64,000 nt of DNA, taken from positions 124,001-188,000 of the forward strand of contig NZ_BBRH01000006.1 in NCBI RefSeq assembly GCF_002090055.1. Direction: 5' to 3'. The notes beneath the pieces were generated by a model. That model was not told the DNA's origin. It searched no databases and worked only from the letters and a program-made list of their open reading frames with translations. This document shows positions 7,695 through 63,648 of the stretch, piece by piece (the stretch's first letter is position 1; each line of letters starts with the position of its first letter). This stretch comes from Demequina sp. NBRC 110051 (GTDB lineage: Bacteria > Actinomycetota > Actinomycetes > Actinomycetales > Demequinaceae). The translations under genes and the position numbers were made by a program.

Positions 7695-7798
7695 GTGACA
7701 CTTACAGATGACGCTAGTGACATTTGTCACACGGTCAACTTGAGAGCGTGACTGATGTGACTGATGTGACGCCAGAGCGATCGTGTGACAAAAGTCAC
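7695..7798 (-). promoter_or_regulatory. Promoter and GTGAC/GTCAC operator array for the giant secreted protein
   Basis: On the minus strand, TTGACC (plus 7733-7738) and TAGCGT (7711-7716) form a -35/-10 pair with 16-base spacing. The spacer is almost filled by the palindrome GTGACATTTGTCAC (7717-7730). Upstream of the -35 lie three GTGAC sites at 7748, 7757 and 7766 with an exact 9-bp period (GTGACTGAT repeated), and a second palindrome GTGACAAAAGTCAC at 7785-7798. A lone GTGACA is at 7695. Read on the minus strand the triple repeat is GTCACA-N3 three times, the published mycobacterial MtrA box pattern. This explains most of the 7645-8027 gap; the rest of the gap (7799-8027) shows no gene. 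Confidence 0.65.
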
Positions 7799-58089: not shown

Positions 58090-59130
58090 ATGGAGATTGC
58101 CCTCCTCGTCCTCGCGGCGCTCGGCATCGGCGTGGTCGTCGGGCTGACGGGCATGGGCGGCGGCGCCCTGATGACGCCGACGCTCGTGTTCTTCTTTGGC
58201 ATCCCGCCGGTGACCGCCGTGTCCTCCGACGTGGTGGCGTCCGCGTTCATGAAGCCCGCGGGCTCGTGGGTGCATATTCGGAACAAGACCGTGAACTGGC
58301 AGCTAGTGCGGTTGTTGGTGTACGGGTCGGTGCCGTCCGCGTTTTTGGGCGTGGTGGCGGCGCACTTCCTGATCGATCCCGAGGCGCTGCAGAGCTTTGT
58401 GAAGCACGCGCTGGGCGTGGTGCTAGTGATCGCTGCGGGCGGCTTGGCCGTGCGCGCGTATCTGCGACTGCGCGAGCGGGCGATGGTGCGCGACGGGCGG
58501 GCGACGGCGCTGCCGTTCGACAAGCCTGTGGTGGTGCCGCGTCCGGTGCCGACCATCCTGGTGGGCGTGTTCGGCGGGCTCATGGTGGGGCTAACCTCCG
58601 TGGGCTCTGGCTCGCTGATCATCATTGCTCTGATGGCGCTGTACCCGGCGCTGAAGGCGAACCAGCTGGTGGGAACCGACCTGGTGCAGGCGGTGCCGCT
58701 GGTGGTCGCTGCCTCGGTAGCGCACCTCGCGTTTGGTGACGTGGACTGGTCGGTGACGCTGCCGGTGATTGTTGGCTCGATCCCCGGCACGTACCTGGGA
58801 GCGCAGCTGTCCTCGCGGGTCTCCGGCGGGATCGTGCGCCGCGCGCTGGTCTTTGTGCTGACGCTGTCGGGCCTCAAGATGATGGGCCTGTCGAACACCA
58901 TCGCGTTCTCCGTGGTGGGCGCCCAGATGGTGCTCGGCACGCTCGCGTGGGGCTGGATCCGTCACCGCCTGGGCTTCGCCTTCTTTACGTTCCAGGAGAA
59001 GGGCGGGGCGGCGACGGAGTTGTCGGCTGATTCGTCTTCGTCTGGTTCGTCGTTGTCCTCGTCTTCGTCCTCGTCTTCGGACGAGCTGTCTTCGCCCGCG
59101 TCCCCGGCCGACCCCCACCAGGAGAAGTGA
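58090..59130 (+). CDS. TauE/SafE (TSUP) family permease
   Basis: The protein has 346 residues from ATG 58090, two bases after the cysN stop. Eight or so membrane spans carry the family motifs GLTGMGGGALMTPTLVFFFG (near residue 18) and GLTSVGSGSLIIIALM (near 175). The C-terminal 45 residues are a Ser-rich low-complexity tail (SSSSSSDELSSPASPA). Family members export sulfite or sulfoacetate or import sulfate-like anions. Within a PAPS operon it probably moves sulfate or sulfite. Confidence 0.88.
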   Translation: MEIALLVLAALGIGVVVGLTGMGGGALMTPTLVFFFGIPPVTAVSSDVVASAFMKPAGSWVHIRNKTVNWQLVRLLVYGSVPSAFLGVVAAHFLIDPEALQSFVKHALGVVLVIAAGGLAVRAYLRLRERAMVRDGRATALPFDKPVVVPRPVPTILVGVFGGLMVGLTSVGSGSLIIIALMALYPALKANQLVGTDLVQAVPLVVAASVAHLAFGDVDWSVTLPVIVGSIPGTYLGAQLSSRVSGGIVRRALVFVLTLSGLKMMGLSNTIAFSVVGAQMVLGTLAWGWIRHRLGFAFFTFQEKGGAATELSADSSSSGSSLSSSSSSSSDELSSPASPADPHQEK

Positions 59131-60290
59131 TGCACGGCGTTCGCCTGAGCCCACTGCAGCTCAATGAACTCGAGTTGTTGCGCATCGGCGCCTACGGCCC
59201 GACCCCTCGATACTCGCTGCCGGCCGCTGGGGCGACCCAGGCATCGGCCGCCGTCAGTGCCTCCCTGGTAGCGGGCGCGCATATCGCGACGCTGCGAATC
59301 CCGGACATGGCACCCGGGCGGACGGTGACCCTGCTCGACACCGAGGCGACGCCGATCGCGACGGTCGAGGTTTCGGACAGGCGGACCTCGGCCGCGGGCA
59401 CGTGGATCGCTGGGCCGGTGACGATGCTGCGCGAGCCGTCACTGCCGGTACTGGCTGAACTGCGCCCCGGCGCGTTCGACGACCTCGCGGAGGACGCGAC
59501 CCTGGTGATGGGACGGTTTACCGGCGGGTTGTCCGGGACCGTGATCGTGCTCGATGAGGGGGAGCCCTCGGCGCTGTCGGCGTCGGTGCGGTCATTGAAG
59601 CGTGACGGACTGGACGTGCGGGTGCTGCCGCGCCCGGCGGCCGAGCATGTGTCGGGCGACGCCTCAGTCGAGCTGCTCGAGCACCTCGCCTCCGTGGTGT
59701 GTGCCTCCAACGTGGTGGTGCAGCGCGGGTCCACGCGCGCGCCGGGCGATGGCGCGGTGGTGCTGTTCACCGGGCTGTCCGGATCCGGCAAGTCGACCAT
59801 CGCGCGTCAGGTCACTCGCCGCCTGCGCGCCGAGGGTTCGCAGCGCGTGACGCTCCTGGACGGCGACGAGGTGCGGGCGATGCTGTCCTCCGGCCTGGGT
59901 TTCTCGCGTTCCGACCGGGAACTGAACGTGCGCCGCATTGGCTGGGTGGGGTCGCTGGTGTCGTCGCATGGAGGCATGGCGATCTGCGCTCCCATCGCGC
60001 CCTACGAGTCGATGCGCGCCGAGATGCGCGCCATGGCCGAGCGCGTGGGCCGCTTTGTGCTGGTGCACGTGGCGACTCCGTTGGAGGTCTGTGAGGAGCG
60101 GGACCGCAAGGGGCTGTACGCGGCCGCGCGGCGCGGGGAGATTGCGGAGTTCACCGGCATCTCCGACCCGTATGAGACGCCCACTGATGCGGACGTGGTG
60201 GTCGGCGCCAACGGTGAGTCGGTCGAGGAGTGCGCTGCGGCGGTGGTGCGCTACCTGACGGCTTCCGCGGGCGGCGACTACACCATCTGA
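59130..60290 (+). CDS. cysC: APS kinase with a degenerate N-terminal extension
   Basis: The protein has 386 residues. ATG 59130 follows AGGAG; GTG 59127 is too close to it. The C-terminal 180 residues are a full APS kinase: Walker A FTGLSGSGKSTIAR (GLSGSGKS at 215-222), LLDGDEVRAMLSSGLGFSRSDRELNVRRIGWV in parts, and IAPYESMRAEMR. The N-terminal 200 residues (LSPLQLNELELLRIGAYGP...) resemble a decayed PUA/ATP-sulfurylase-like region without clear catalytic motifs. It phosphorylates APS to PAPS, the donor for sulfotransferases. No PAPS/APS reductase or sulfite reductase gene follows in the operon. Confidence 0.9.
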   Translation: MHGVRLSPLQLNELELLRIGAYGPTPRYSLPAAGATQASAAVSASLVAGAHIATLRIPDMAPGRTVTLLDTEATPIATVEVSDRRTSAAGTWIAGPVTMLREPSLPVLAELRPGAFDDLAEDATLVMGRFTGGLSGTVIVLDEGEPSALSASVRSLKRDGLDVRVLPRPAAEHVSGDASVELLEHLASVVCASNVVVQRGSTRAPGDGAVVLFTGLSGSGKSTIARQVTRRLRAEGSQRVTLLDGDEVRAMLSSGLGFSRSDRELNVRRIGWVGSLVSSHGGMAICAPIAPYESMRAEMRAMAERVGRFVLVHVATPLEVCEERDRKGLYAAARRGEIAEFTGISDPYETPTDADVVVGANGESVEECAAAVVRYLTASAGGDYTI

Positions 60291-60311: not shown

Positions 60312-60415
60312 GTACCGCTCAACACACAGCTGGTGCGCGTGGGGCGCATGTGGCCCGTGTGCATGCACACCAGCCCTGCACGCCCCATCAGCCCCAAGTG
60401 TGTGTTGAGCGGTAC
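60312..60415. repeat. 104-bp palindromic element, copy 1
   Basis: Perfect 16-bp arms GTACCGCTCAACACAC (60312-60327) and GTGTGTTGAGCGGTAC (60400-60415). The 72-base interior starts with a GCTGGTGCGCGTGGGGC segment conserved in copy 2 and ends with ATCAGCCCCA, also conserved; the centre differs. An inner stem is possible (GGGGC with GCCCC, GCTG with CAGC). It follows cysC by 21 bases. Confidence 0.9.
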
Positions 60416-60546
60416 GGGGGACGCCGACAGCGGGACCGGGCAGCGCGATGCCCAGGCGCCGTCCACAGGCGTGCGGTTCCGGGTCGTTCTCCCCAGACAC
60501 GCGGGTGCCAGCCCCCTTCATGGCGCGGGTCGCGCACGGTGGGGCG

Positions 60547-61389
60547 ATGGACCCGGTGCGCGCCGTCATGAGGCTCGGCGGCGCCGCGCGCCGCGGCACA
60601 CTCCTTGCGCAAGGGGTCTCGAGGCGCGCGATCGATGCCGCCGTGCGTGACGGCGCCCTGTCACGGCCGCTGACCGGAGTGCTCACTCTGCCGCATACCT
60701 ACGCCTATGCGGCTCACGCCTGCTACTTCGACGCGCGGGTGACGTGTGTCAGCGCGGCGCGGGAGCACGGGCTTCGGTTGCTCGATGCCCCAGAAGGGCT
60801 TCACTTGGAGATCGCGGCGGGGCGCGGCGGCACGGCGAGTGACTCGAAGGCGCGTGAGGGGGTGTTGCTCCACAGGACGCGCACCCACACACCCGGGAAC
60901 CGTGTGGTGTCCGTAGGACGAGCGCTCGACATGATGAGTCACTGCGTGAGCCCCCTCGCTCAGTTGGTCGCCATCGACCACGCGCTCGCGCTAGGTGCCC
61001 TGCGGCGCTCCCAGATCGCAGACTTCACCGTGACGCCGCTCGCCAGAAGGCGCTGGCTAGAATGTGCGGCGGATCCCGGTGCGGGGTCAGTGCCGGAGAC
61101 ATGCGCGCGAGTGGCCATGCGCGCAGCAGGCCTGCATGTGGTGGTCCAGGCTCCACTCGGCAACGGCAAGCGCGCGGACTTCCTCGTCGAGGGCATTCTG
61201 TACGTCGAGATCGACGGCAAGAGCTACCACAGCGACCCTGGCCAGTTCACTCAAGACCGGCGGCGCGATCGCGGGATCGTCGCCGAGCGGGGGAGCGTCA
61301 TCCGCTTCGCCTATGCGGATGCCGTGTATCACCCGGACCGCCTCGTGGCAGATGTCGTGGCCTGTCTGGAAGCCATCCGGGCCCGGTGA
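60547..61389 (+). CDS. DUF559/Vsr-like nuclease-fold protein with AbiEi-like N-terminus
   Basis: The protein has 280 residues from ATG 60547 (other in-frame starts lie upstream but inside low-complexity sequence). Residues about 1-75 (RRGTLLAQGVSRRAIDAAVRDGALSRPLTGVLTLP) look like the winged-helix N-terminus of AbiEi-type proteins. The C-terminal domain has RADFLVEGILYVEIDGKSYH, followed by a QFTQDRRRDRGIVAERGSVIRF helix: the D-x(n)-E-x-D-G-K pattern of DUF559/very-short-patch-repair (PD-(D/E)XK) nucleases. No methylase or antitoxin partner is adjacent. It is bracketed by two 104-bp palindromes. A DNA-cutting defence or selfish role is inference. Confidence 0.8.
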   Translation: MDPVRAVMRLGGAARRGTLLAQGVSRRAIDAAVRDGALSRPLTGVLTLPHTYAYAAHACYFDARVTCVSAAREHGLRLLDAPEGLHLEIAAGRGGTASDSKAREGVLLHRTRTHTPGNRVVSVGRALDMMSHCVSPLAQLVAIDHALALGALRRSQIADFTVTPLARRRWLECAADPGAGSVPETCARVAMRAAGLHVVVQAPLGNGKRADFLVEGILYVEIDGKSYHSDPGQFTQDRRRDRGIVAERGSVIRFAYADAVYHPDRLVADVVACLEAIRAR

Positions 61390-61402
61390 GGTCACCGCCC
61401 CC

Positions 61403-61506
61403 GTACCGCTCAACACACGGCTGGTGCGCGTGGGGCCTCTGCGTGTGGTGTGAATCCTCATGCGTCCCACGGGCCACATCAGCCCCAGGTGTGTGTTGAG
61501 CGGTAC
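61403..61506. repeat. 104-bp palindromic element, copy 2
   Basis: Identical 16-bp arms to copy 1 (61403-61418 and 61491-61506) and identical total length. The interior shares 17 bases at its left end and most of the last 15 with copy 1, while the central 36 bases are unrelated. It lies 13 bases after the nuclease stop and 90 bases before ftsH. Confidence 0.9.
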
Positions 61507-61596: not shown

Positions 61597-63648
61597 ATGA
61601 AGAATGCCTTCAGTCTGCGCCGCATCATTCCGCTGATCATCCTGGCAGTTGTGCTGGGCTGGCTCGTCTCCGGGCTGTTTGCGCCGCGCGTGCAGCAGAT
61701 CGACACCTCGCAGGGCATGGCGCTGCTGGAGGCCAACCTGGTGGACCAGGCCAAGATGGTCGACGGGGACCAGCGCGTGGAGCTGGTGCTGATCGAGGAC
61801 TTCGCGGATAACCTGCCCGAGGACGCTCCCGCCGAGTGGGCCGACTACCAGGACCGTGTCGAGTTCTTCTACGTCGCGCCGCAGGGCGAGCAGGTCGTCG
61901 ACGCGATCACCGCGGCCGACCCCGCCGGCGGCTACGACTCGGAGGTCCCGCAGACCTCGATCTGGACCACCATCCTCTTCACGTTCCTGCCGATCCTGCT
62001 GCTGGTGGGCCTCTTCTGGTTCCTCATGTCCTCGATGCAGGGCGGCGGCGGCCGTCTCATGCAGTTCGGCAAGTCCAAGGCCTCGCTGGTGACGCCCGAC
62101 ACCCCCACGGTGAAGTTTGACGACGTCGCCGGTGTGGACGAGGCCGTCGACGAGCTGCGCGAGATCCAGGAGTTCCTTGAGGCCCCCGCGAAATTCCAGG
62201 CCGTGGGCGCCAAGATCCCCAAGGGTGTGCTGCTGTACGGGCCTCCCGGCACCGGTAAGACGCTGCTCGCGCGCGCCGTCGCGGGCGAGGCAGGCGTGCC
62301 GTTCTTCCACATTTCTGGTTCGGACTTCGTCGAGATGTTCGTCGGTGTGGGTGCGAGCCGTGTGCGCGACCTGTTCGAGCAGGCCAAGAAGAACGCCCCC
62401 GCCATCATCTTCGTCGACGAGATCGACGCCGTCGGCCGCCACCGCGGCGCCGGCATGGGCGGCGGTCACGACGAGCGCGAGCAGACGCTCAACCAGATGC
62501 TCGTCGAGATGGACGGCTTTGGCGCCACCACCAACGTCATCATCATCGCGGCGACCAACCGCCCCGACATCCTCGACCCCGCGCTGCTGCGCCCGGGCCG
62601 CTTTGACCGCCAGGTGGGCGTCGACGGCCCCGACCTCAAGGGCCGCCTCAAGGTCCTCGAGGTGCACTCGAAGGGCAAGCCGATGGCGCCCGAGGTTGAC
62701 CTCGAGGTCATCGCCCGTCGCACGCCCGGATTTACCGGCGCCGACCTCGCGAACGTCCTCAACGAGGCCGCGCTGCTCACCGCCCGCAAGGATGGCCAAC
62801 TCATTGGCCCGGTGGAGCTGGATGAGGCCATCGACCGCGTCATCGCCGGCCCCCAGAAGCGCACGCGCGTGATGAACGACCACGACAAGACCGTCACCGC
62901 GTACCACGAGGGCGGCCACGCCCTCGTGGCGGCCGCGATGAACCACACGGACCCCGTCACCAAGGTCACGATTCTCCCGCGCGGCCGTGCGCTGGGCTAC
63001 ACGATGGTCATGCCGCAGGAGGACCGCTACTCCAAGACGCGTAACCAGCTGCTCGACAACCTCGCCTACGCGATGGGCGGACGCATTGCCGAGGAGCTCG
63101 TGTTCGGCGACCCGTCCACCGGTGCCAGCAACGACATCTCGCAGGCCACCGACATCGCCCGCCAAATGGTGACCGAGTACGGCATGTCCACGGACATCGG
63201 CTCGGTGCGCCTGGCCGGCAGCTCGGGCGAGGTCTTCATGGGCCGCGACATGGGCCACGGCCGCGACTACTCGGAGCAGAACGCCGCGATCGTCGACCGC
63301 GAGGTCCGCGCGCTCATGGACAACGCGATGGCCGAGGCCACCAAGGCCCTCCAGGGGAACCGCGCCCTGCTCGACCGCCTCGCCGAGGAGCTCCTCGAGA
63401 AGGAGACCCTCAACGAGACCGAGCTCGCGGAGATCTTCGCCGACGTCAAGAAGGTCGCCAAGCGCAAGCACTGGGTCAGCGGCGAGTGGGCGCCCAAGAC
63501 CGCGCCCCGCAAGAAGCCCGTCACCGCCCCCGCGCCGCCGCTCGAGGAGCCCAAGGACACCGTGGGCGAGGAGCCGGCCGATGCCGCGGCTGAGCCCCGT
63601 ACCGACGCACCGACCGACGTTCCGCAAGACGGAACCGACCAGGCATGA
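61597..63648 (+). CDS. ftsH: ATP-dependent zinc metalloprotease
   Basis: The protein has 683 residues. Two membrane spans (about 9-28 and 122-145) flank the extracellular domain. AAA+ motifs: Walker A GPPGTGKT (215-222), Walker B IIFVDEID (270-277), and a second-region-of-homology [20 protein letters not shown]. The protease site is HEGGH (437-441) with Asp513 in SNDISQATD as third zinc ligand. The C-terminal 45 residues are Pro/Ala/Glu-rich. It degrades membrane and short-lived proteins. TAGTCT at 61582-61587 is a likely -10; the message has little or no leader. Confidence 0.97.

Follow-up and report, generated by a model that had tools for sequence, protein, structure and literature searches.

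What does a single nuclease gene do between two long palindromes of exactly the same length, and do the gene and the palindromes form one unit? This arrangement is found in the stretch of DNA analysed here (the window, 64 kb in length), which belongs to a genome of the genus Demequina (G000). The arm GTACCGCTCAACACAC and its reverse complement match exactly at positions 60312/60400 and 61403/61491, defining two 104-bp quasi-palindromes on the plus strand, both with the arms GTACCGCTCAACACAC and GTGTGTTGAGCGGTAC; the equal lengths and perfect 16-bp arms reported in the preliminary description of the locus are thus exact. The upstream element (60312..60415) ends 134 bp before the start codon of the nuclease gene, while the downstream one (61403..61506) begins 13 bp past its stop codon, and the four perfect arm copies around the gene alternate in orientation. 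As had also been reported, only one gene lies between the palindromes, that of the nuclease (60550..61389, plus strand; 280 codons, 279 amino acids and a stop). An alternative in-frame ATG at 60448 gives a longer open reading frame, but the coding sequence 60550-61389 is preferred since its start, MDPV, is common to the homologues. The unit is neighbored on the same strand by genes for a CysC-domain protein (adenylylsulphate kinase; 59127..60290) and the protease FtsH (61597..63648).

Four matches to GTACCGCTCAACACAC were reached in only 2 of 100 shuffled windows, and no further copy is present in the 64-kb window with up to three mismatches allowed. A chance origin of the palindromes is ruled out by this comparison together with the flank-word and four-arm tests described below. 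The inner part of the upstream element (60328..60399, with no strand assigned; counterpart at 61419-61490) consists of TGNGRCNNN repeats with a period of 9 nt that converge on the dyad. The two centres had been called unrelated, which does not hold: 50 of their 72 bases agree where a shuffled centre would give about 20, and an alignment of both elements spans 114 nt at 79% identity.

The AlphaFold2 model of the nuclease (mean pLDDT 92.5) was matched by Foldseek to AbiEi (6y8q) and, in its C-terminal domain, to the catalytic domain of the homing endonuclease I-Bth0305I (3r3p, target TM 0.71) and to 3hrl, with a weaker match to Vsr; 3hrl was also found in a profile search. These results confirm the AbiEi-like N-terminus and the Vsr-like nuclease fold proposed earlier. 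The nuclease domain is of the EDxHD/Vsr type (PF18741/DUF559-like), the family of the Vsr-type restriction endonuclease MTES_1575 (PF18741) and the DUF559 proteins, although its Pfam match to MTES_1575 falls under the gathering score. Residues E184, D211, D223, H228, and D237 are invariant among 29 homologues, and E221 nearly so. The protein shares with the EDxHD homing endonucleases the Vsr-like catalytic fold and the pattern of E, D, H, and D residues, and the target on which I-Bth0305I is known to dimerise is exceptionally long, at nearly 60 bp (PMC3943268). Contrary to these enzymes, the gene in the window is not located in an intron, an intein, or its own target, but is flanked by two intact palindromes as the presumed target, and contrary to I-Bth0305I its product has an AbiEi-like N-terminus. 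The N-terminal fold (6y8q) is that of the AbiEi antitoxin and the regulators of type IV toxin-antitoxin systems. However, no AbiEii nucleotidyltransferase is adjacent, the neighbors being the CysC-domain protein and FtsH, and the nuclease domain is fused to the AbiEi-like region, which separates this protein from the AbiE toxin-antitoxin systems.

The nuclease is under purifying selection (dN/dS 0.04-0.25), and it evolves faster than its neighbors, with 86% identity to the sister species (G039) against 93% for the CysC-domain protein and 99% for FtsH. Of 297 genomes of the order, 159 have profile matches to this DUF559/MTES_1575-type nuclease family. One possible role for such a protein would be defense, with the nuclease attacking foreign DNA and the palindromes acting as self marks, as decoys, or as a restraint on the enzyme. 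The description of Vsr-type nuclease and wHTH domains in conflict systems (PMC3710099), the weak AbiEi matches in PADLOC, and the rapid evolution of both protein and arms would agree with this role. It is nevertheless improbable, given that no partner toxin, methylase, or defense gene is found between the palindromes of the window, that NCBIfam gives no match for the nuclease and PADLOC none above the level of AbiEi, and that the dispersal of the palindromes to gene ends has no obvious defensive role.

This dispersal is seen first in G000 itself, where eight additional places carry the GTACCGCTCAACACAC arm, every one of them as a 104-bp pair, together with about 14 copies of a sister type of 104-106 bp with the arm SRTCGGTTTGGCCCAC (covariance model of ten copies). 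The covariance model also matches palindromes with other arms in congeners, such as GTGCAGTTCTGCACGC in G004 and GATCGGTTTGACACAA in G010. Dispersed copies lie mostly close to the 3' ends of genes, and many of them between convergent genes. The earlier expectation of many copies, usually beside DUF559 genes, holds for the existence of dispersed copies but not for their surroundings: among the contexts examined, the nuclease is present only in the three pairs at the ftsH loci of G000, G004, and G010. A simple association of dispersed palindromes with an adjacent DUF559 gene is therefore rejected, and for the 106-bp type of arm no nuclease was found in G000. When one contig was scanned de novo for palindromes, 21 were obtained against 17 in the mirror control (23 against 11 in the sister species), a result not far above that control, so that short generic palindromes on this contig carry no weight.

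The ten aligned 104-bp copies contain no indels, their arms are nearly invariant, and their centres have diverged. Inner positions that are conserved follow a TGNGRC-type motif with a 9-nt period that converges on the dyad, spacings of 9, 18, and 27 nt being dominant. Base-pair covariation over the ten copies does not exceed that of column shuffles, with no compensatory changes, and on this pattern a double-stranded protein-binding array would fit better than an RNA. Transcription terminators or structured RNAs are accordingly a scarcely credible explanation of the elements: their predicted folding is well below that of shuffles (z -5.3 to -8.2), with strong hairpins on both strands, and they are located at gene ends, but besides the missing covariation no run of T follows either copy in the window, Rfam gives no match within it, and the arms are coupled to the nuclease lineage. 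One branch has GTCACA-N3 boxes arrayed head to head in the inner part, and this array resembles the direct repeats to which the response regulator MtrA binds (PMC4285127). The resemblance serves as a lead only; it raises the possibility that a host regulator docks on the element as well. A weaker palindrome of 82 bp, GTGACATTTGTCAC...GTGACAAAAGTCAC, is found between two divergent genes at 7717-7798 of the window; it contains TGACTGATGTGACTGATGTGAC at a 9-nt period and could be a genuine site for a regulator similar to MtrA.

Nuclease homologues are encoded in all 44 Demequina genomes (44/44), and many of them are bracketed in the same way. In the flank-word test, an exact word of at least 13 nt common to both 350-bp flanks of one gene was found for 50 of 84 distinct homologues from the 44 genomes and for 16 of 416 mismatched flank pairs, although this test, the four-arm test, and their thresholds were chosen mid-analysis, after the first cases had been seen, and the counts are given without phylogenetic correction, the relatedness of the genomes weakening counts of co-occurrence. 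Other genes tested with their own flanks shared such a word in 37 of 556 cases. With words of at least 17 nt, the result was 22 of 84 nucleases against 3 of 556 other genes, one of these three being the window nuclease itself. Palindromes with the same arm lie on both sides of 36 of the 84 nucleases (4 of 167 mismatched pairs), and at least three of four arm copies are exact around 25 nucleases and around none of the mismatched pairs. Bracketing extends outside Demequina, to 15 of 27 nucleases against 8 of 206 mismatched pairs. About 40% of the homologues have no flank word in common at the sensitivity used. A set of distant Demequina AbiEi-DUF559 proteins (L317-L336) had been meant as a negative control, and flank words were found in 8 of these 20, the longest at L322 (28 nt), L332 (25 nt), and L319 (21 nt), suggesting that the phenomenon may extend to a wider superfamily.

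The arms are private to the nucleases. Members of a single nuclease family are bracketed by at least about 20 arms, which differ between nuclease lineages. Arms and proteins coevolve: in a comparison of 28 nucleases having palindrome pairs, the length of the longest palindrome word that two of them share rises with the identity of their proteins (Mantel r 0.62, a value as high being reached in 0 of 2000 permutations). The arms, which had been suggested to be under selection for recognition, indeed look selected as recognition sequences. In several cases, the arm of a dispersed family is that of the resident nuclease. Among the 44 genomes searched, the CAAGTCACAC arm occurs only in G028 (10 copies) and G035 (6), and the CTATCCACAC arm only in G028 (1) and G032 (3); in each case the nuclease of both genomes carries that arm. 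The word TAGCCGCACTTG is found in 9 copies in G191, a genome of another family, two of them flanking its nuclease, and in none of 20 congeners. Palindromes with CTCAACACAC are present in G000, G039, and G041, whose nuclease carries this arm, and also in G019, G038, G040, and G048, where none of the nucleases put through the flank tests was detected with it. The palindrome of G079 exists in exactly two copies, identical and 69 bp long, which both lie at the nuclease of this genome; such a state would fit a recent arrival. What ties nuclease and palindromes is thus a cognate arm sequence and not adjacency. Widespread palindromes with no link to DUF559 genes had been named as the outcome that would speak against a joint unit; the palindromes are widespread, but their cognate arms provide the link.

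The same data bear on whether the palindromes could be ordinary MITE- or REP-like repeats moved by an unrelated transposase, the nuclease gene being only passively associated with them. Their length of about 60-120 bp and their dispersal in intergenic positions do resemble those of REPs and of MITEs such as RUP, NEMIS, and ERIC (PMC3733652). Contrary to MITEs, however, a parent insertion sequence was not found, a nuclease gene lies between copies, and the centres of the aligned 104-bp copies have diverged without indels. This origin is very improbable, as about 20 or more arms each bracket a member of one nuclease family and the arm type tracks nuclease relatedness. In addition, a search of ten genomes that covered the Y1 class of transposases (PF01797) only, and was positive in control genomes, found none, and Y1_Tnp is absent from the Pfam scan of the window nuclease. 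An integron attC identity was likewise rejected: the pattern RYYYAAC..GTTRRRY fits only the GCTCAAC..GTTGAGC arm, and the other arm families of the same class fail.

The precedent for such a tie between a palindromic repeat family and the gene it brackets is the REP/RAYT system, the mechanism of which is still a model. In REP/RAYT (REPtron) and TIR/TIRYT, as in Demequina, the gene is flanked on either side by a private palindrome with further copies dispersed in the genome, protein and repeat coevolve, and copies are located mainly downstream of genes or between convergent ones (PMC2817692, PMC3733652); the gene, moreover, evolves faster than its neighbors, as reported for RAYTs (PMC2817692). 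The differences concern the components. The Demequina enzyme combines an AbiEi-like region with an EDxHD/Vsr-type nuclease, whereas RAYTs are Y1 HUH transposases similar to those of IS200/IS605; the palindromes are longer (about 60-120 bp) than REPs (20-40 bp) and number from about ten to a few tens, where REPs number hundreds; and the GTAG/CGTC tag of REPs was not seen in the elements inspected.

The window probably holds, with moderate confidence on our part, one REPtron-like unit, whose nuclease, which is not a transposase, would recognize its own palindromes and would also have spread them. The anatomy of the unit is a palindrome, about 90-220 bp (134 here), the gene of the AbiEi-fold and EDxHD/Vsr-type nuclease, about 0-70 bp, and a second palindrome. 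The palindrome family, of roughly 60-120 bp with private arms of about 10-16 bp and a patterned inner part, is specific to the nuclease lineage, and several lineages have further copies dispersed in the genome, mostly at the 3' ends of genes. As a mechanism, we propose that a dimer would read both arms as double-stranded DNA through its AbiEi-like domain and that the nuclease domain would nick or cut inside or beside the palindrome. Repair would then copy the palindrome, and occasionally the whole unit, to other permissive intergenic sites. Selection for binding would keep the arms, while central positions that are not read would drift. The computations establish the bracketing, the coupling and coevolution of arm and nuclease, the spread of cognate arms through genomes, the conservation of the nuclease's catalytic residues, and its purifying selection. 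Binding and cutting by the nuclease, the copying step, mobility, the direction of cause, and the role of the nuclease rather than another enzyme in spreading the palindromes are what we infer from these patterns. For the broader proposal, belief and doubt are evenly balanced: that these are widespread actinobacterial selfish units in which an AbiEi-EDxHD nuclease takes the place of a transposase, generating and maintaining a dispersed family of double-stranded palindromes of its own, and that the branch with the GTCACA-N3 array might also dock a host regulator.

Inheritance is mostly vertical and turnover slow. G000 and its sister species G039 are about 86% identical in nucleotides over the compared region, and 10 of the 13 G000 elements on the compared contig are found at orthologous places in G039, with arms mostly retained and whole-element identities from 57% to 98%, and with ordinary sequence divergence. 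Of the other three, one is a remnant in G039, the second is missing there, with other DNA inserted and a different palindrome in its place, and the third lies in a region without a match on its left side. The unit of the window is itself at the orthologous place in G039, and in G004 and G010 a nuclease-palindrome unit likewise precedes a gene with the size of ftsH; a recent mobile cassette at this locus is thereby ruled out. Of the selfish unit first suggested, the specific tie of the nuclease family to its flanking palindromes stands, as a candidate, and the recent insertion of the window cassette does not. The empty sites anticipated in sister strains did not appear either: none that is clean, with defined ends or junction, was found between the sister species, and no target-site duplication was seen. 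With most elements on the compared contig orthologous in the sister species, movement is old or rare. At C7:187787-188014 of G000 (L054), the two arm types occur side by side, in a 106-bp and a 104-bp element separated by 18 bp; of these, G039 has the 104-bp element alone, and no clear junction marks the absence of the other. A plasmid origin was rejected, with no plasmid match and one weak phage match.

Vertical inheritance, together with strong purifying selection, the AbiEi-like fold, and the conserved spacing of the upstream palindrome, is also what a domesticated regulator would show. According to this main rival explanation, in which nothing moves, the protein would be an AbiEi-like repressor with the palindromes as operators, autoregulating at the upstream copy and serving elsewhere a regulon or a chromosome-organizing set, and its nuclease domain would be used in defense or repair. 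We consider such a role unlikely, though worth keeping in view, because the downstream copy is no less regular than the upstream one, the dispersed copies are mainly at gene 3' ends or between convergent genes and not at promoters, and arm type and copy number vary between species and with the nuclease lineage.

If the REPtron-like reading is true, this would be a second system with the REP/RAYT layout built on an unrelated enzyme, indicating that the arrangement evolves repeatedly, and it would provide a candidate function for a large actinobacterial family of DUF559/MTES_1575-type nucleases. Since the RAYT enzyme and the AbiEii partner are absent and the presumed target is unoccupied, the unit belongs to none of the known families. 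What is new is the class of enzyme and the type of palindrome, not the overall layout, which works like a REPtron. Within the open-access journal papers searched, no description of such a nuclease-palindrome system was found, nor any paper connecting DUF559 or MTES_1575 proteins with comparable inverted or palindromic repeats. The many natural pairs of enzyme and target, with long and differing recognition sequences, would be useful for reading DNA specificity, and testing is direct because the predicted target accompanies each enzyme.

Some further palindromes were observed along the way. G006 (L082-L088) has several dispersed palindromes with an arm resembling ATTCCCAATGACA; the same arm word is common to both nuclease flanks in G027 (L156) and G037 (L177), but did not turn up at those G006 nucleases that were examined. 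A nearly perfect 66-bp inverted repeat, GCGTCCTGTGAGGAGG..., at G000:C6:217637-217702 (L213) has no relation to the palindrome families. Finally, a CTCAACACAC palindrome lies behind a gene at G041:C4:4052 (L186), and the counterpart region around G000:C17:90006 (L053) shows a GACAGTTCGAACCGGA-type arm instead, together with about 2.3 kb of additional DNA ahead of its own 104-bp element, so that one and the same 3' end seems to carry palindromes of different types depending on the species.
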